A DNA stretch of 64,000 nucleotides from Amycolatopsis pithecellobii. Its GTDB lineage: Bacteria > Actinomycetota > Actinomycetes > Mycobacteriales > Pseudonocardiaceae. Where the stretch lies: the NCBI RefSeq assembly GCF_009707865.1, contig NZ_WMBA01000002.1, positions 62,001 to 126,000 on the forward strand, written 5' to 3'. This document shows, piece after piece, positions 10,709 through 63,022 of the stretch; position 1 is the stretch's first letter; each line of letters begins with the position of its first letter. Under the pieces are notes generated by a model that saw nothing but the letters and a program-made list of their open reading frames with translations, searched no databases and was not told the origin of the DNA. Position numbers and translations under genes: made by a program.

Positions 10709-11871
10709 TTCCGGATGCTCCATTGGGTCACGGTGCGGGCGGGGGTCCAGCCGGTGAAGCCGCCGAGCGGTGCGGCGTGTTCGACGGCGATCCGGGTCAG
10801 TTCGCCGCCGCGGTCGCGGTAGGCGGCGGCGAGTACTTGTTCCGATTCGAGGGTCACGGCATGCGCGACAAGCCACCCGCCGGGAGTGAGCGCGTCGAAA
10901 CACCGGCGCCACACGGACAACGCGCCGCCGAGGAACACCGCGTCGGGCGCTGGCAGCCCGTCGAGCGCGTCCGGGGCGGCGCCGGTGACGACCCGAAGAT
11001 CAGGCACCCCAAGGCTTTCCGCGTTGCGACCGATCCGCGCCGCGCGTCCGGCGTCACGCTCGATCGCGATCGCGCGGTTCGCCGGATGCGCCCGCGACCA
11101 TTCGATCGCGACGCTCCCCGCGCCGGCCCCGACGTCCCACAGCAGCCGGCCGGGTAACGGCGCGAGCCGGGCGAGGGCGAGCGCACGCAGGTCTCGCTTG
11201 GTCAGCTGGCCGTCGTGCTCGAAGGCGTCATCGGGCAGGCCGGTCAACGGCAGCCCGGGACCACCGGCGCATTCGATCGCGACCAGGTTCAGCGGCCCGA
11301 TCTCCGCCGACCAGGTCCCCGCTACCCCGTCGACGCGGCGTTCGTCCGGCGAGCCGAGCTCCTCGAAGACGCTCAGCGTGCTGTCGCCGAAGCCTTGTGC
11401 GGTAAGCAGTTCCGCGACCGCGGCCGGGCTCGACGCGTCGGAGCTGAGCACCAGCAGCCGCGCGCCCGGTGTCAGCACCCTGGCGACACGATGGACGTTC
11501 CGCCCGACGACGCTCACCACTTCGGTCTCCTCGAAGGACCAGCCGAGCCGCGCGCGGGCGAGCGTCACCGACGAGACCGTCGGCACGATCCGGACGTCGT
11601 CGAACTTTTTCACCAGTGTCGTGCCGATCCCGGACAACAGCGGGTCGCCGCTGGCGAGGACGCCGAACCGCTTCCCGGCGTGGTCGGCCAGCAGCTCGCC
11701 CAGCGCGGGCAGCAGTGGGCTCGGCCACGCCCGCTTCGGTTTGCCCAACGGCACCAGCGCCAGCTGCCGCGTGCTGCCGAACAGCACGTCACAGCTGGTC
11801 AGCTCCGCCCTGGCGGCTTCGGTCAACCCGGCCCAGCCGTCGGCGCCCACGCCCACAACGACAATCGTCAC
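10705..11871 (-). CDS. cobL: Precorrin-6B C5,15-methyltransferase (decarboxylating) CobL
   Basis: This 388-aa two-domain enzyme has an N-terminal CbiE-like tetrapyrrole methylase (VVVGVGADGWAGLTEAA, then LASGDPLLSGIGTTL) and a C-terminal CbiT-like Rossmann methyltransferase with [16 protein letters not shown] and VFLGGALS. It methylates C5 and C15 and decarboxylates the acetate side chain at C12. I used the GTG at 11871 because the protein then begins directly with the first beta strand; a 56-codon upstream extension runs through the riboswitch on the other strand and looks spurious. It couples to cobM by an ATGA overlap. Confidence 0.93.
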   Translation of the reverse strand: MTIVVVGVGADGWAGLTEAARAELTSCDVLFGSTRQLALVPLGKPKRAWPSPLLPALGELLADHAGKRFGVLASGDPLLSGIGTTLVKKFDDVRIVPTVSSVTLARARLGWSFEETEVVSVVGRNVHRVARVLTPGARLLVLSSDASSPAAVAELLTAQGFGDSTLSVFEELGSPDERRVDGVAGTWSAEIGPLNLVAIECAGGPGLPLTGLPDDAFEHDGQLTKRDLRALALARLAPLPGRLLWDVGAGAGSVAIEWSRAHPANRAIAIERDAGRAARIGRNAESLGVPDLRVVTGAAPDALDGLPAPDAVFLGGALSVWRRCFDALTPGGWLVAHAVTLESEQVLAAAYRDRGGELTRIAVEHAAPLGGFTGWTPARTVTQWSIRK

Positions 11872-11884
11872 AATCGGCAACCGT

Positions 11885-12000
11885 ATGCGATGATGCCGGG
11901 GACGGTCGTCGTGGAACCCGGTGCGAATCCGGGGCGGTCCCGCCACTGTGACCGGTCGTCCGCGGCCGGCAGCCAGAGCTTCGGCGCCCGTTACGCGTGT
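11885..12000 (+). promoter_or_regulatory. Cobalamin (AdoCbl) riboswitch
   Basis: The conserved core of the B12 riboswitch is readable: GGAACCCGGTGCGAATCC at 11913-11930, then GGTCCCGCCACTGTGACC to 11953, and a B12-box-like segment, GCAGCCAGAGCTTCGGCGCC, near 11969-11988. It lies in the leader of the chelatase gene, whose TTG start is 12063. A short GC hairpin (GCGGG...CCCGC, about 12027-12044) and the GAAGGAG ribosome site at 12051-12057 probably form the expression platform. Boundaries are approximate. High B12 should lower expression of the chelatase-cobO-cobB-cobC operon. Confidence 0.9.
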
Positions 12001-12062
12001 TTCCGTGCGCGTGCCCTGTTTTCCAGCGGGCGAGGACACCCGCGCGTGGCGAAGGAGTCTTC

Positions 12063-14018
12063 TTGAGGCCGTACCCGTTCACCGCTGTCGTCGGCATGCC
12101 GGACTTACGGTTGGCGCTGGTCCTTTCCGCGATTTCGCCCGCGATCGGCGGGGTGCTCGTGCGTGGGGAGAAGGGCACGGCGAAGTCCACGATGGTCCGT
12201 GCGCTCGCCGGCCTGCTGCCCGAGGTGGAGGTCATCGAGGGCTGCCGTTTTTCCTGTGATCCCAACGCCGTCGACCCGGCCTGTCCCGACGGGCCGCACA
12301 CCGGGCCCGCCGCCCGCAGGCCCGCGCGGCTGGTCGAACTGCCGGTGGGTGCGGCCGAGGACAGGGTGGTCGGCTCGCTGAACCTCGAACGCGCGCTCGC
12401 CGAGGGGGTCACCGACTACCAGCCCGGCCTCCTCGCGGCGGCGCATCGCGGCCTGCTGTATGTCGACGAAGTCAACCTCCTGCATGACCATCTGGTCGAC
12501 ACGCTTCTCGACGCCGCGGCGATGGGTCGGGCGACCGTCGAGCGCGAGGGTGTCTCGGTTTCGCACGCGGCACGGTTCGTGTTGATCGGCACGATGAATC
12601 CGGAGGAAGGGGAGCTGCGGCCGCAGCTGCTCGACCGGTTCGGGCTCACCGTCGAGGTCGCCTCCAGTCGTGACCCGCAGCAACGCGCCGAAGTCATCCG
12701 CCGCAGGCTGGCGTATGAAGCCGATCCAGAGGCCTTCGCGTCCAAATACGACTCCGAGGACGCGGCGCTGGCGGCGGAAATCGAAGCAGCGCAACGGCTT
12801 CTGCCTTCCGTGGTGTTGACCGACGAGGCGTTGCGGCAGATCGCCGAGGTGTGTGCGTCCTTCGATGTAGACGGTATGCGCGCGGATATCGTCACCGCCC
12901 GCACGGCCGTCGCGCACGCCGCGTGGGCCGGGCGTGCCGAAGTGTCCACTGAGGACATTCGGGTCGCCGCGCGGCTGGCCTTGCCGCATCGCCGTCGCCG
13001 CAATCCGTTCGACGCGCCGGGAATCGACGAGGACCAGCTGGAGCAGGCCTTACAGGACGCCGAACCGCCGGAGCCGGACGACGACGGTCCTGGCTCGGGT
13101 GCGCCGGAACCGTCCGAAGAGGACTCGACCGCCGGCGATGGCGAACCGCAGGCTGCCGGGAGCGGTGCCGAACAGCGGACGGGTGCGGGGAAACCGTTCC
13201 AGGCGCGCGTTTTCCGGGTCGCCGGGGTCGGCGAGGGCGAGCGTGGCCGCCGGTCGCGGGCGGTGACCGACTCGGGCCGGACGGTCGGTGTGCAGCCACC
13301 GAGTGTGGGCGAGGGCAAGCCGCATCTCGTCGCGACGATCCGTGCCGCGGCGCCGCATCAAGGCAAGCGTGGGCGGTCTGGGCCGGGCTTGGTGCTGCGC
13401 AAGGGAGATCTGCGGTACGCGCGGCGCGAAGGCAACGAGGGTAACCTCGTGCTGTTCTGTGTGGACGCATCCGGCTCGATGGGCGCGAAGGCGCGGATGC
13501 GTGAGGTCAAAGCGGCGGTGCTGTCGTTGTTGCTGGACGCTTACCAGCGGCGGGACAAGGTCGGGCTGGTCACGTTCCGGGCCGCCGCGGCGGAGCTGGC
13601 GTTGCCGCCGACGATCAGCGTGGAGGCCGCGGCCGCCCGCCTGGAAGCGCTTCCTACCGGCGGTCGCACCCCGCTCGCCGAAGGACTTCTGGAAGCGGCA
13701 CGGGTGCTGCGGGTCGAACGGCTACGGGACCCGCGCCGACGCCCGTTGCTGGTGGTGGTGACCGACGGGCGGGCGACGAGCGGGCCGGATGCCGTGCGGC
13801 GCTCGCAGGCGGCGGCGGAACTGCTGACCGGGGTGACGTCCGTGGTGATGGATTGCGAGAGCGGGCGGATGCGGCTCGGCCTCGCCGCCGAACTGGCCGG
13901 CCACCTCGGCGGCGAACACGTCCCGCTGGGTGAGGTCGCCGCGGATTCCCTCGCCCGCGCGGTGAAATCCCGCCTCCGGCGGCCCCCGCGAGTCGAACGT
14001 TGGGAGCGCGCGAGTTGA
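12063..14018 (+). CDS. Fused ChlI/ChlD-type cobaltochelatase subunit (AAA+ plus VWA)
   Basis: About 651 aa. The N-terminal AAA+ domain carries a Walker A-like GEKGTAKS at residues 36-43, Walker B in LLYVDEVNLL and a GTMNPEEGELRPQLLDRFG block. A Pro/Glu/Asp-rich linker (about 335-430) leads to a VWA domain with the MIDAS motif DASGS at about residue 468. Such ATPase fusions replace separate CobS and CobT chelatase subunits and work with CobN, which is not in this window. The TTG at 12063 is chosen because GAAGGAG lies 5 nt upstream. Expression should be under the preceding riboswitch. The stop codon lies inside the first unit of a 22-bp repeat array. Confidence 0.9.
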   Translation: MRPYPFTAVVGMPDLRLALVLSAISPAIGGVLVRGEKGTAKSTMVRALAGLLPEVEVIEGCRFSCDPNAVDPACPDGPHTGPAARRPARLVELPVGAAEDRVVGSLNLERALAEGVTDYQPGLLAAAHRGLLYVDEVNLLHDHLVDTLLDAAAMGRATVEREGVSVSHAARFVLIGTMNPEEGELRPQLLDRFGLTVEVASSRDPQQRAEVIRRRLAYEADPEAFASKYDSEDAALAAEIEAAQRLLPSVVLTDEALRQIAEVCASFDVDGMRADIVTARTAVAHAAWAGRAEVSTEDIRVAARLALPHRRRRNPFDAPGIDEDQLEQALQDAEPPEPDDDGPGSGAPEPSEEDSTAGDGEPQAAGSGAEQRTGAGKPFQARVFRVAGVGEGERGRRSRAVTDSGRTVGVQPPSVGEGKPHLVATIRAAAPHQGKRGRSGPGLVLRKGDLRYARREGNEGNLVLFCVDASGSMGAKARMREVKAAVLSLLLDAYQRRDKVGLVTFRAAAAELALPPTISVEAAAARLEALPTGGRTPLAEGLLEAARVLRVERLRDPRRRPLLVVVTDGRATSGPDAVRRSQAAAELLTGVTSVVMDCESGRMRLGLAAELAGHLGGEHVPLGEVAADSLARAVKSRLRRPPRVERWERAS

Positions 14019-14164
14019 GCGTTGGGTGTGCGCGAGTTGAGCGTTGGGTGTGTGCGAGTTGAGCGGTGCGTGCGGTGGGAAGGTACAACTCGCGCCTCGG
14101 GAACGCGCAACTCGCGCGGCGGGAAGGCTCAACTCGCGGGGCGGGAACGCTCAACTCGCGGGGA
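14008..14164. repeat. Mirrored 22-bp repeat array, copy 1
   Basis: Three units in one orientation start at 14008, 14030 and 14052 (type GCGCGAGTTGAGCGTTGGGT). After a 3-bp centre (14074-14076), four units of the opposite orientation start at 14077, 14099, 14121 and 14143 (type GGGAACGCGCAACTCGCG). Every unit is 22 bp. The array covers the last codons and stop of the chelatase gene and ends 18 bp before cobO. It could fold into a long imperfect hairpin in RNA or a cruciform in DNA. A second array with the same plan is at 62294. Confidence 0.9.
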
Positions 14165-14182: not shown

Positions 14183-14797
14183 ATGCCGCAGGGAAAACCC
14201 GAGGTCGTCCCTGAGGACGGGCTCACTACGCGCCAGCGGCGTAACCGGCCGATCTTCGCTGTCCACACCGGACCGATGAAGGGCAAATCCACCGCGGCCT
14301 TCGGGATGGCGTTGCGGGCGTGGAACCAGGGCTGGTCCATCGGGGTGTTCCAGTTTGTCAAGTCCGCGAAATGGCGGGTCGGGGAGGAAAGCGCCTTCCG
14401 CGCGCTGGGCGAACTGCACGAGCGAACCGGGCAGGGCGGACCCGTCGAGTGGCACAAGATGGGCGAGGGCTGGAGCTGGTCACGCAAGGCCGGTACCGAA
14501 GAGGATCACGCCGCGAACGCGCGTGAGGGCTGGGCGGAGATCAAGCGCCGCCTCGCCGCGGAAACGCACGACTTCTACGTCCTCGACGAGTTCACTTACC
14601 CGCTGAAATGGGGCTGGATCGACGTTTCCGACGTGGTGTCTGCTATCCGTGACCGGCCGGGGCGTCAGCACGTGGTCATCACCGGCCGGGACGCGCCGCC
14701 CGCGCTCGTCGAGGCCGCTGATCTGGTCGTCGAGATGACCAAAATCAAGCACCCCATGGACGCCGGGCAAAAAGGCCAGCGGGGGATCGAATGGTAG
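14183..14797 (+). CDS. cobO: Cob(I)yrinate a,c-diamide adenosyltransferase CobO
   Basis: This 204-aa BtuR/CobA/CobO-type enzyme transfers the adenosyl group of ATP to the reduced corrinoid cobalt. The P-loop GPMKGKST lies at about residues 30-37; FYVLDEFTYPLKWGW and VVITGRDAPPALVEAADLV are family blocks. The ATG at 14183 follows GGGAGGGCAG at a workable distance, and an upstream extension through the repeat array was rejected. It overlaps cobB by 7 bp, so cobO, cobB and cobC form one coupled unit downstream of the chelatase and riboswitch. Confidence 0.96.
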   Translation: MPQGKPEVVPEDGLTTRQRRNRPIFAVHTGPMKGKSTAAFGMALRAWNQGWSIGVFQFVKSAKWRVGEESAFRALGELHERTGQGGPVEWHKMGEGWSWSRKAGTEEDHAANAREGWAEIKRRLAAETHDFYVLDEFTYPLKWGWIDVSDVVSAIRDRPGRQHVVITGRDAPPALVEAADLVVEMTKIKHPMDAGQKGQRGIEW

Positions 14798-57670: not shown

Positions 57671-57786
57671 GGGCGGCGAGCGCGAGCCGGGCTCGTGGCG
57701 GCGAGCGCCAGTCGAACTCGCAGCGGCGGGCGCGAGTCGGGTTGGTGGCGGCGAGCGCCAGCCGGGTTCGTTAGCGGCGAGCGCCG
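57671..57786. repeat. Degenerate 25-bp direct repeat array
   Basis: About 4.5 units of 24-27 bp begin near 57671, 57696, 57722, 57746 and 57773, each starting with a GCGGCGAGCGC-like core followed by CAGTC/GAGCC and GGGT. The array begins about 55 bp after vdh. Parts (GAACTCGCAGCGGCGGG, GCGCGAGTCGGG) resemble the 22-bp repeat family at 14008 and 62294, so it may be a decayed relative. Confidence 0.6.
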
Positions 57787-57831
57787 ACGTCCGTCGGCAG
57801 TAGGGCTCATCGGCAGTACCGGGGGCGCCGC

Positions 57832-58850
57832 CGACAGCTTTCCCCACCGGAGCAGGGAGTTCGCGCGGACCTCACGGCCCGCTCAGCTGCCGTCGCCCCC
57901 GGGCCAGAAGGTGAAGCGGCGCGGTAAAGCTGTCACCGGGAAGTTGTTTCCGCGCGAGAGGTTTCCGCTCGTGTTACTTCCGCGCGCGGTAAGGACCTGC
58001 TCGGACAAACGCGCGATCGCGGCTTGCCGGGCCGGTGCGGCCGGGTGGTCGACCCAGCCGGTGAAACTCGGTCGGGGCGGCGCTGTCGTAGCAAAACGGC
58101 GATCTTGGCGCCCGTGGCCGGTAGCGGCTGGAGCGGCCCCGGCAGCTTTCCCCGCCGGCGCAGGGGGTTTCGCCGGCTCGCTGCTGCGAACCTCGCAGCC
58201 CGCTCAGCTCCCGTCGGTGCTGCGAAGGTGAAGCCGTGCGGTAAAACCGTCGTCCGGGAAGTTGTTTCCGCGCGAGAGGTTTCCGCTCGCGTTATTTCCG
58301 CGCGCGGTAAAGACGTGGTCGGACGGAGGCGCGCCCGCGGCCTGCCGGGTCGGCGCGGACCAAGAGTCGTCGACCCAACCGGTCAAGCTCGCCAGCCCGG
58401 GCGGCGCCGTCGGAGTCAAACGGCGATCTTGGCGCCCCTTGCCCGTAGCGGCTCGAACGGCCCCGGCAGCTTTCCTCGCCAGCGCAGGGAGTTCGCGCGA
58501 ATCTCGCGGCTCGCTCAGCTCTCGTCGGCTCCGGGTCAGAAGGTGAAGCCGTGCGGTAGAGCCGTTGCCCGGGAAGTTGTTTCCGCGCGAGAGGTTTCCG
58601 CTCGCGTTATTTGCGTGCGTGGTAAAGACGTGGTCGGGCAGAGGCGTGACCGCGGGCTGCCGGGTCGGCGCGGACCGAGAGTCGTCGACCCAGCCGGTGA
58701 AGCTCGCCAGCCGGGGCGGCGCCGTCGGAGTCAAACGGCGATCTTGGCGCCCCGTGCTCGTAGCGGCTCGAACGGCCCCGGCAGCTTTCCGTGCCAGCGC
58801 AGGGAGTTCGCGTGAGCCCCGCGGCCTGCTGAGCTCCCGCCCGCCAGAAT
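57832..58850. repeat. Tandem array of about 315-bp units, three full plus one partial
   Basis: Units begin at about 57832, 58140, 58464 and 58779 with a CGGCAGCTTTCC-like start, giving periods of about 308, 324 and 315 bp; the last is truncated near 58850. The best-conserved core, GGGAAGTTGTTTCCGCGCGA, recurs at 57938, 58256 and 58571, followed by a 6-bp hairpin (CGCGAG, 9 nt, CTCGCG). A second conserved end holds AAACGGCGATCTTGGCGCC. Long frames are open in several phases on both strands, none with family features. The whole interval 57618-58853 between vdh and the DUF5302 gene consists of this array and the 25-bp array. Confidence 0.85.
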
Positions 58851-61756: not shown

Positions 61757-62248
61757 ATGCGTCTCGTCATCCTCGCGGACACCCATGTACCCCGGCGCGC
61801 GCGGCGCCTGCCGGCGCAGGTCTGGCGGTCGGTGGAGGAGGCGGATGTCGTGATCCATGCGGGAGATTGGGTCGAAGTGAGCCTGCTCGACGAACTCGAA
61901 GCGCGCAGCAGCGAGCTCATCGGTGTGTACGGCAACAACGACGGTCCGGAACTTCGCGCACGTCTGCCCGAGATCGCTCGCGCGGAGCTGGACGGGCTGC
62001 GCTTCGCGGTCGTACATGAGACGGGGGCGGCGAAAGGGCGCGAGCAGCGTTGCGCGGCCGCCTTCCCGGACACCGATGTGCTGGTGTTCGGGCACAGCCA
62101 CATTCCGTGGGATTCCTTGGCGGACAACGGATTGCGCCTGCTCAACCCTGGGTCGCCGACCGACCGTCGCCGCCAGCCGCACTGTACTTATCTCACCGCG
62201 CTCATCGCGGATGCGGAGTTGACCGACGTGCGGCTGCACCGCCTCTGA
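61757..62248 (+). CDS. YfcE-type metallophosphoesterase
   Basis: This 163-aa calcineurin-like phosphoesterase contains the full metal-site set: LADTHVPRRA, VIHAGDWVE, GVYGNNDGPE and VFGHSHIPW, with NPGSPTDRRR at the C-terminus as in YfcE/MJ0936 proteins. These hydrolyse phosphodiesters of unknown physiological type. The last 15 bases, including the stop codon, are duplicated exactly in tandem (62238-62252 and 62253-62267). A 22-bp repeat array follows 46 bp downstream. Confidence 0.92.
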   Translation: MRLVILADTHVPRRARRLPAQVWRSVEEADVVIHAGDWVEVSLLDELEARSSELIGVYGNNDGPELRARLPEIARAELDGLRFAVVHETGAAKGREQRCAAAFPDTDVLVFGHSHIPWDSLADNGLRLLNPGSPTDRRRQPHCTYLTALIADAELTDVRLHRL

Positions 62249-62293
62249 CTCAACCGCCTCTGACTCAGGCGACGACCCGGAAGATCAGCCTGC

Positions 62294-62472
62294 GCGCGAG
62301 TCGCACGTTGCGTGCGGCCGAGTCGCACGTTGCGTGCGGCCGAGTTGTGCGTTCCATGCGACGGGAACGCGCAACTCGCGCGGCGGGAACGCGCAACTCG
62401 CGCGACGGGAACGCTCGACTCGCGTGGCGGGAACGCGCAACTCGCGCTGCGGGAACGCGCAACTCGCGTGGC
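62294..62472. repeat. Mirrored 22-bp repeat array, copy 2
   Basis: Three units in one orientation start at 62294, 62316 and 62338 (type GCGCGAGTCGCACGTTGCGT). After a 3-bp centre (62360-62362), five units of the opposite orientation start at 62363, 62385, 62407, 62429 and 62451 (type GGGAACGCGCAACTCGCG). All units are exactly 22 bp and the direct ones differ at only a few positions. The plan is the same as at 14008. It fills most of the 315-bp gap between the phosphoesterase gene and the MaoC-like gene; nothing else was seen there. Confidence 0.92.
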
Positions 62473-62563
62473 GGCGCGCCGGTGAACCCCGTCGCGCCGA
62501 AAGAACCAGGTCAAGGCCGGTCATGCCGGTACCGTGACCGGTTGGTGTGGGAGGCTGCTCGTC

Positions 62564-63022
62564 ATGAGCGATCGCTACTTCGAGGACTACGTCGAGGGTT
62601 CGACGGAAGAATTGGGCAGCATCAAGGTGAGCGAGGACGAAATCCTCGAGTTCGCCACCAAGTACGACCCGCAGCCGTTCCACGTCGACCCCCCGGCGGC
62701 CGCGGCCGGCCCGTACGGCGGCCTCATCGCGAGTGGCTGGCACACCGCGAGCCTGATGATGAAGCTGGTCGTGCGGAACTACCTGTCCGCTGCGTCGAGC
62801 CTCGGCAGCCCCGGCATCGACGAGTTGCGCTGGCTCAAGCCGGTGCGCCCCGGTGACGAGCTGCGCGCCCGGGTTCAGGTGCTCGAAGCGCGGCCGTCGA
62901 AATCCAAGCCGGACCGTGGTTTGCTGCGCAGCCTCGTCGAGCTACGCAACCAGGATGACGAGACCGTGTTCACCGCCGTCGCGCTCAACTTCGTCCTCCG
63001 CCGGTGGGCGACCGCAACTTGA
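62564..63022 (+). CDS. MaoC-like (R)-specific enoyl-acyl hydratase
   Basis: This 152-aa hot-dog-fold protein has the hydratase-2 motif in YDPQPFHVDPPAAAAGPYGG (catalytic Asp and His) and LIASGWHTASLMMKL. It would hydrate or dehydrate acyl-CoA or acyl-ACP thioesters. The ATG at 62564 follows GGGAGG at 9 nt; a 10-codon upstream extension is less likely. It stands alone between the repeat array and whiB, so the pathway is not indicated. Confidence 0.9.
   Translation: MSDRYFEDYVEGSTEELGSIKVSEDEILEFATKYDPQPFHVDPPAAAAGPYGGLIASGWHTASLMMKLVVRNYLSAASSLGSPGIDELRWLKPVRPGDELRARVQVLEARPSKSKPDRGLLRSLVELRNQDDETVFTAVALNFVLRRWATAT

Follow-up and report, generated by a model that had tools for sequence, protein, structure and literature searches.

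DNA uptake sequences form dialects of species-specific words, often arranged as inverted pairs at gene ends. The MIRU-type intergenic repeats of mycobacteria, which belong to the same phylum as the organism studied here, are known near stop codons only as direct repeats, with no orientation switch. The closest described systems are the REP-type elements. Sections of three papers on these elements describe REP/REPIN doublets near gene 3′ ends that are tagged with GTAG or CGTC; RAYT transposases are proposed there for the GTAG kind and the CGTC kind is reported without a dedicated one (PMC3116915, PMC2817692, PMC3733652). The position close to gene 3′ ends is also described in a part of one of these papers that does not include Actinobacteria among the phyla named, and the string 'actino' occurs 0 times in its main text (PMC3733652). 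The BIMEs, as presented in a section of another, are clusters in which the orientation of the units alternates (PMC2817692). No description of such repeats in the Pseudonocardiaceae was found in the open-access literature, among the matches listed and judged by title or start of the abstract.

The window, namely the whole 64-kb stretch of Amycolatopsis pithecellobii DNA that was analysed, carries two arrays with an identical switch and step, one at 62297-62466 (3+5 units; array 2) and one at 13989-14158 (4+4 units; array 1) (Table 1). A first-pass annotation had described array 2 as eight 22-bp units with one change of orientation at a 3-bp centre, and this layout is confirmed by the core positions and a shuffle control. 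Array 1 is not described there, though the closing line mentions 'these two' copies. The 13-bp core CGAGTTGNNCGTT (≤1 mismatch) starts at 62297, 62319 and 62341 on the + strand and at 62366, 62388, 62410, 62432 and 62454 on the - strand. The steps are thus 22 bp inside the arms and 25 bp over the inward switch, the latter being the '3-bp centre' of the annotation. The longest same-strand 22-bp chain is 5 units as observed versus 1 in 500 dinucleotide shuffles of 62200-62560, and TRF detected the two arms as separate repeats. The annotation had further held that the array is neither a CRISPR nor an ordinary tandem repeat, which stands: instead of unique spacers there are linkers that repeat at the 22-bp step, and the single switch recurs genome-wide. 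The array is set apart from CRISPR on repeat layout.

Table 1. Window arrays and their neighbouring genes, with arrays of the TGTGTTTGCCCG / TGAGTTGGC type in the sister species G012
Feature	Coordinates	Strand	Remark
Array 1, left arm	13989..14067	+	4 units
Array 1, centre	14068..14079		spacing as in array 2
Array 1, right arm	14080..14158	-	4 units
Chelatase-like AAA/VWA gene	12096..14018	+	present stop codon falls within array 1
cobO-like adenosyltransferase	14183..14797	+	beyond array 1
Array 2 (the array first annotated), left arm	62297..62353	+	3 units, 22-bp step
Array 2, centre	62354..62365		12 bp separating the innermost 13-bp cores; 25 bp start to start
Array 2, right arm	62366..62466	-	5 units, 22-bp step
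Metallophosphoesterase (Metallophos_2)	61757..62248	+	upstream of array 2
Probable 3′-end remnant of a convergent saccharopine-dehydrogenase-like gene	62265..62292	-	likeness and extent judged by eye
5′-end remnant of the same saccharopine-dehydrogenase-like gene	62474..62524	-	far side of array 2; start of the aligned stretch
MaoC-like dehydratase	62564..63022	+	downstream of array 2
TGTGTTTGCCCG / TGAGTTGGC type array, G012	L160:4768-4957		
TGTGTTTGCCCG / TGAGTTGGC type array, G012	L232:14256-14520		
TGTGTTTGCCCG / TGAGTTGGC type array, G012	L242:5567-5621		

Array 2 occupies the place of a 1.15-kb convergent gene of the sister species G012, both ends of which seem to be retained in A. pithecellobii. 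It is immediately preceded, at 62238-62267, by a 15-bp perfect direct duplication (ACCGCCTCTGACTCA) of the metallophosphoesterase stop region. The chelatase and cobO genes, one base apart in G012, are separated by array 1 in A. pithecellobii; a Cobalamin riboswitch (Rfam RF00174, 36.6 bits) lies upstream of this pair at 11858-12061. Elsewhere in the window, a 315-bp tandem repeat of about 3.2 copies (82% matches) lies in a gap between called genes at 57831-58839 and is adjoined by 25-bp repeats at 57672-57785.

The whole A. pithecellobii genome (7.9 Mb in 144 contigs) was searched with two patterns. The centre pattern, core-N12-inverted core with ≤3 mismatches, has 57 matches and the backwards-read control 0, indicating that centre and switch are conserved in other copies of this genome. 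The tandem pattern (≤3 mismatches) has 196 forward and 191 reverse matches, compared with 10 and 1 in the control. Sixty arrays of ≥3 units were parsed, 53 two-armed and 7 one-armed. The exact 25-bp switch is present in 52 of the 53, with both inner cores at ≤1 mismatch in the 52, a figure biased by the fact that most loci were chosen through the centre pattern. Counted independently of the centre, among the tandem matches listed, 27 of 35 arrays switch at exactly 25 bp; of the other eight, 7 have a single arm and 1 a different gap. Arms of the centred arrays vary from 1 to 10 units. One of the one-armed arrays (L097:6123-6530) has 19 units and stands at a contig end; arrays perhaps break the assembly. 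All 57 arrays that were classed are intergenic, some overlapping a gene end, and the genome thus has many extragenic copies of a short inverted pair, as REP/REPIN elements do.

Comparison of individual copies revealed how alike they are. Nine elements with two units per arm (2+2) were compared over 98 bp, including 8 flanking nucleotides at each side; eight of them are 84-93% identical and the ninth is 69-76%. Eight of the nine, located at unrelated loci, therefore represent an inverted doublet copied as a unit, as in REPINs. Eight arrays, again at unrelated loci, share an outer-unit variant (GAGTTGACCTTT) at their edge. The array edges are sharp and the flanks differ from array to array; by eye, many of the outer edges read CCGCGCGAG. 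GAGT and CGYTC (also CG.TC) are the conserved letters, surrounding variable bases. In 36 of the 52 centred arrays, the base after one inner core is G (consensus linker GCGTGCG) and the base after its partner is C (CCCGCCG); both orders of these two sides relative to the genes occur.

The corresponding sites were inspected in G012, whose aligned flanks are mostly 80-94% identical to those of A. pithecellobii. Eight of 24 candidate matches were left out as paralogous, repeated or weak, and 16 of 27 flank pieces yielded a usable site; the weaker or partial matches L051, L095 and L103 were left out of the initial flank comparisons. Among 13 sites with both flanks aligned, 11 have no array in G012. 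The empty G012 site is tight, with 0-28 unaligned nucleotides, in eight cases (array 1, L061, L078, L065, L080, L058, L066 and L070). At L061 and L070 it reads as the overlapping stop codons (CTAG) of convergent genes. Of the remaining three, at L051 two genes abut, at L081 an unrelated 539-nt spacer has no array and contains a hairpin with a T-run, as judged by eye, and at array 2 G012 has the 1.15-kb convergent gene. Array 1 (chelatase/cobO) and the array at L078 come between genes that are separated by 1-5 nt in G012. The arrays at L058:2731-2774 and L080:2945-2998 directly follow an older hairpin (by eye) that is common to G012, with partly changed stem letters. The other two of the 13 sites (L074 and L097:3020) have an array of other units in G012. 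Where a single flank was usable (nine sites), a G012 array of other units lies beside the gene in three (L054, L079, L097:6123 about 200 nt off) and the remaining six have no array nearby. Where G012 has other units at the corresponding gene end, replacement in place, a functional site and fresh insertion fit equally well.

The near-identical 2+2 elements at unrelated loci, together with the tight empty sites in G012, demonstrate that the element has been dispersed by copying and that whole elements were copied to unrelated loci. Both observations, and the outer-unit variant common to unrelated loci, contradict ordinary minisatellite growth at each site without mobility. Such growth would account for the variable unit number and for the homogeneity of linkers within an arm (7.09 of 9 positions alike, versus 4.64 between arms); as an explanation of the arrays as a whole it is scarcely credible.

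The two arms of an array were then compared with each other. The lengths of the two arms do not correlate (Spearman 0.09, P 0.53, n=52). Mirrored core units of A. pithecellobii agree at 10.66 of 13 positions versus 10.58 for other left-right pairs, a slight nominal excess (permutation P 0.041). No mirrored excess was found in the cores of G013, another species of the genus (P 0.69), or in the linkers of A. pithecellobii (P 0.96) and G013 (P 0.92). A mixed set, 19 arrays taken from other species, does have a mirrored excess (core P 0.005, linker P 0.023), possibly arising from a distinct innermost unit. Given the uncorrelated arm lengths and the at most slight mirrored matching, the arms change largely separately after copying.

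The innermost stem is complementary across species. At variable positions 5-8, the two sides of the stem pair in 28-32 of 38 centres taken from other genomes, versus shuffled means of 12-21 under a shuffle that ignores the kinship of these related sequences; at position 6 the count falls inside the shuffled maximum. These 38 centres are among the matches listed (≤5 per genome), one strand each, and at least three are singles and maybe chance matches. Because positions 5-8 pair above the shuffled means, the innermost stem looks either kept or recently formed. Among the A. pithecellobii centres, pairing at position 7 is limited to 8 of 52, and recurrent mismatches are opposed at several positions. 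Past the outer core, flank complementarity is as in shuffled flanks, save at 1 of 16 positions that is about 2.7 sd above.

The symmetric plan had been interpreted in the first-pass annotation as pointing to selection for a long hairpin or cruciform, or for paired protein sites. With regard to the hairpin, the inverted plan with its fixed centre, the complementary innermost stem and the nominal mirrored excess in A. pithecellobii and in the mixed set are what such selection would produce. Since the arms lengthen independently, the hairpin interpretation is not supported; the barely greater likeness of mirrored units, the lack of a mirrored excess in G013 and in the linkers of both species, the recurrent opposed mismatches and the existence of one-armed arrays argue against it as well. 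Selection for one long hairpin or cruciform is therefore very improbable.

The arrays are located beside stop codons. Position was judged with a home-made, simple gene caller based on codon usage, and background gaps were taken from the same loci as the arrays. The 57 classed A. pithecellobii arrays comprise 24 between convergent genes, 29 between codirectional genes and 4 between divergent genes, with 3 more at contig edges; the background gaps number 30, 173 and 44, and the enrichment of arrays in convergent gaps is significant (Fisher P 1e-6). Codirectional arrays are a median of 7 nt from the stop and 58 nt from the next start, and 26 of the 29 are closer to the stop. G013, in which 35 arrays with a different core (GAGTCCCACGTTC) were parsed, gives a similar picture: 18 convergent, 15 codirectional and 2 divergent arrays versus a background of 19, 91 and 26, and codirectional arrays 14 nt from the stop and 100 nt from the start, with 14 of 15 closer to the stop. 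Proximity to gene 3′ ends, a property of REP/REPIN elements, thus holds in both species. The polarity of the arms relative to gene direction is 11 one way and 7 the other among codirectional arrays.

The stop codons at the arrays also differ in kind. TGA is scarcer at array-side stops than elsewhere in the same loci, both in A. pithecellobii (29/74 versus 169/220) and in G013 (21/44 versus 82/117). This shift may stem from the choice of target or from subsequent repair at the end of the gene. Array-side stops are richer in TAG in both species and in TAA in A. pithecellobii, and CTAG occurs at 14/74 array-side stops versus 11/220 elsewhere in A. pithecellobii, an enrichment that is not significant in G013.

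The stop-codon position in two genomes could also be explained by function, in that the arrays would act as two-way transcription terminators or 3′-end mRNA barriers whose stem-loop ends or protects the transcripts of both neighbours and which selection keeps at stops. The window arrays do fold stably as RNA compared with shuffles (array 2, z -3.6 on each strand; array 1, z -6.2 on the + strand), and such better-than-shuffle folding is as for any inverted repeat. The hairpin with a T-run in the array-less L081 spacer of G012 (by eye) and the arrays of other units at the same G012 gene end, at 5 of 22 sites examined, would fit this explanation. Several observations oppose it: arrays split gene pairs that are nearly contiguous in G012, at L058 and L080 the array comes after the older hairpin, one-armed arrays exist, arm lengths are uncorrelated, and T-runs are missing at array exits (≥6 T of 8 in 1/64, ≥5 of 8 in 8/64). 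The last point weighs little against other kinds of terminator because hairpin-plus-T-run ends are rare in A. pithecellobii anyway, a strict scan finding them at 2 of 228 other genes. Taken together, a terminator or barrier function as the reason for the arrays is unlikely. A canonical intrinsic terminator, a hairpin followed by a U-run, was ruled out by the single exit with ≥6 T. With T-runs lacking at the exits, a two-way 3′-end RNA barrier is a possible role and a canonical terminator is not.

Bacterial repeats of the REP type have been well studied; here, 90 of 390 species in a single actinobacterial family carry related tandem units. The generic tandem pair (GAGTYNNNCGYTC, step 21 or 22 bp) was detected in these 90 of 390 Pseudonocardiaceae genomes and in 18 of 46 genera, with up to 324 pairs per genome and 4 control matches in 3 genomes. 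G014 and G088 have many tandem pairs; within the genus of A. pithecellobii, carriers include G007, G012 and G014, and non-carriers include G003, G005, G008, G011 and G016. The generic inward centre was found in 21 of the 390 genomes, some single matches being maybe chance, and reading the sequence of the pattern matches in G016 revealed no array. At class level, no genome besides A. pithecellobii has a tandem pair among 355 sampled, which include one other Pseudonocardiaceae genome; among 396 phylum genomes, the generic centre pattern is present in A. pithecellobii and as 2 singles. These searches show that the element is restricted to Pseudonocardiaceae in the samples searched.

Within the family, word and step vary. 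A. pithecellobii, G013 and Prauserella flavalba agree in the spacing of the inward centre, as do most of the other family arrays that were read. A. pithecellobii and G013 have a 22-bp step and P. flavalba and G012 one of 21 bp; exceptions within an array are rare. The repeated word differs among species of one genus (A. pithecellobii, G012 and G013). The G012 genome has 1 match to the generic inward centre (≤1 mismatch), yet in 954 kb of it 27 arrays of two other unit families with the 21-bp step were read (16 convergent, 10 codirectional, 1 divergent). The switch is not strict in G012, where one-armed, inward and outward arrays are all present. The inverted pair thus cannot be the sole spreading unit, as the one-armed and outward arrays indicate. 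The second 21-bp family of G012, with units of the TGTGTTTGCCCG / TGAGTTGGC type, coexists with the GAGTCCGACG family; its 10 arrays in the 954 kb lie mostly at gene ends (6 convergent, 3 codirectional, 1 divergent).

A strict step that differs between species, words that differ likewise, and GAGT and CG.TC conserved around variable bases are features that a putative protein-binding array (nucleoid, gyrase or uptake-type) would have, the word tracking the binding protein and the 21- or 22-bp step placing the sites on one helix face. The number of tandem pairs ranges from 0 to 269 per genome within the genus of A. pithecellobii, and an essential binding site would be odd with copy numbers running from none to hundreds. 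Given this range and the mixed switches of G012, we regard protein binding as an improbable explanation.

The arrays are best explained, and we think probably, as a dispersed non-coding REP/REPIN-like non-autonomous element of an untagged kind with no evident RAYT. The core of the element would be the inverted pair of 13-bp words around the fixed centre, with further copies flanking it at a strict 22-bp step (elsewhere 21-bp). The inverted pair may be recognised by an enzyme, probably in the form of a single-strand hairpin, and moved by it. Whole elements are copied to new places, and those found are almost only intergenic, beside stop codons, presumably because copies are tolerated at gene ends and purged elsewhere. 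There the arms lengthen or shorten independently, presumably through slippage-like tandem copying. Either RNA strand is predicted to form a strong stem-loop with imperfect pairing, by which copies may reduce read-through or shield 3′ ends, as a by-product or as a function acquired later.

A search for Y1_Tnp (PF01797) gave no match in 26 of 28 genomes, A. pithecellobii included, and the two matches, in G024 and G013, have no array within the surrounding 3.1-3.4 kb. Of the 28 genomes, 23 carry tandem pairs, and 21 of these 23 carriers are without a Y1_Tnp match. A broader proposal, which we put forward tentatively and consider rather less likely than the element itself, is that the arrays form a new class of mobile DNA, non-autonomous and confined to the Pseudonocardiaceae. 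Its putative mobiliser would recognise GAGT-N4-CG-YTC inverted pairs and insert them beside stops, and word and helical step would be exchanged from one species to the next, in some cases at one and the same gene end, giving species-wide dialects. Because the repeated word differs between species of one genus, these species offer natural replicate bursts. This makes it testable what moves such elements without a RAYT and whether the stop-codon position results from target choice or from selection, with the TGA shift as a lead on target choice, and arrays that split close gene pairs, such as the one before cobO, are ready test cases for expression effects.

Among known systems, MITEs resemble the A. 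pithecellobii arrays in being small non-coding elements with inverted ends and many copies. Different from MITEs, the arrays show no more target-site duplication than expected by chance (the best flank repeat averages 1.92, versus 2.17, sd 0.22, in shuffled flanks; 52 arrays). DNA uptake sequences differ in that the words of A. pithecellobii stand in longer tandem arms. The arrays share with BIMEs the clustering of regularly spaced intergenic units; orientation changes once per two-armed array rather than alternating. The likeness is greatest to REPINs, which also consist of a short inverted pair with a short spacer, have many extragenic copies, are copied as a unit and adjoin gene 3′ ends, mostly between convergent or codirectional genes. 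Unlike REPINs, the A. pithecellobii arrays have no GTAG or CGTC tag at one end, and their arms are tandem series of 21/22-bp units that share one direction, with a single switch; unlike the GTAG kind, no RAYT/Y1 transposase was found in the genome. The element is accordingly not filed as a REPIN, lacking the tag and a detected RAYT, and it works like one. The first-pass statement that no named family has this plan was close to right, and what it missed is that the behaviour of the arrays matches that of REP/REPIN elements.
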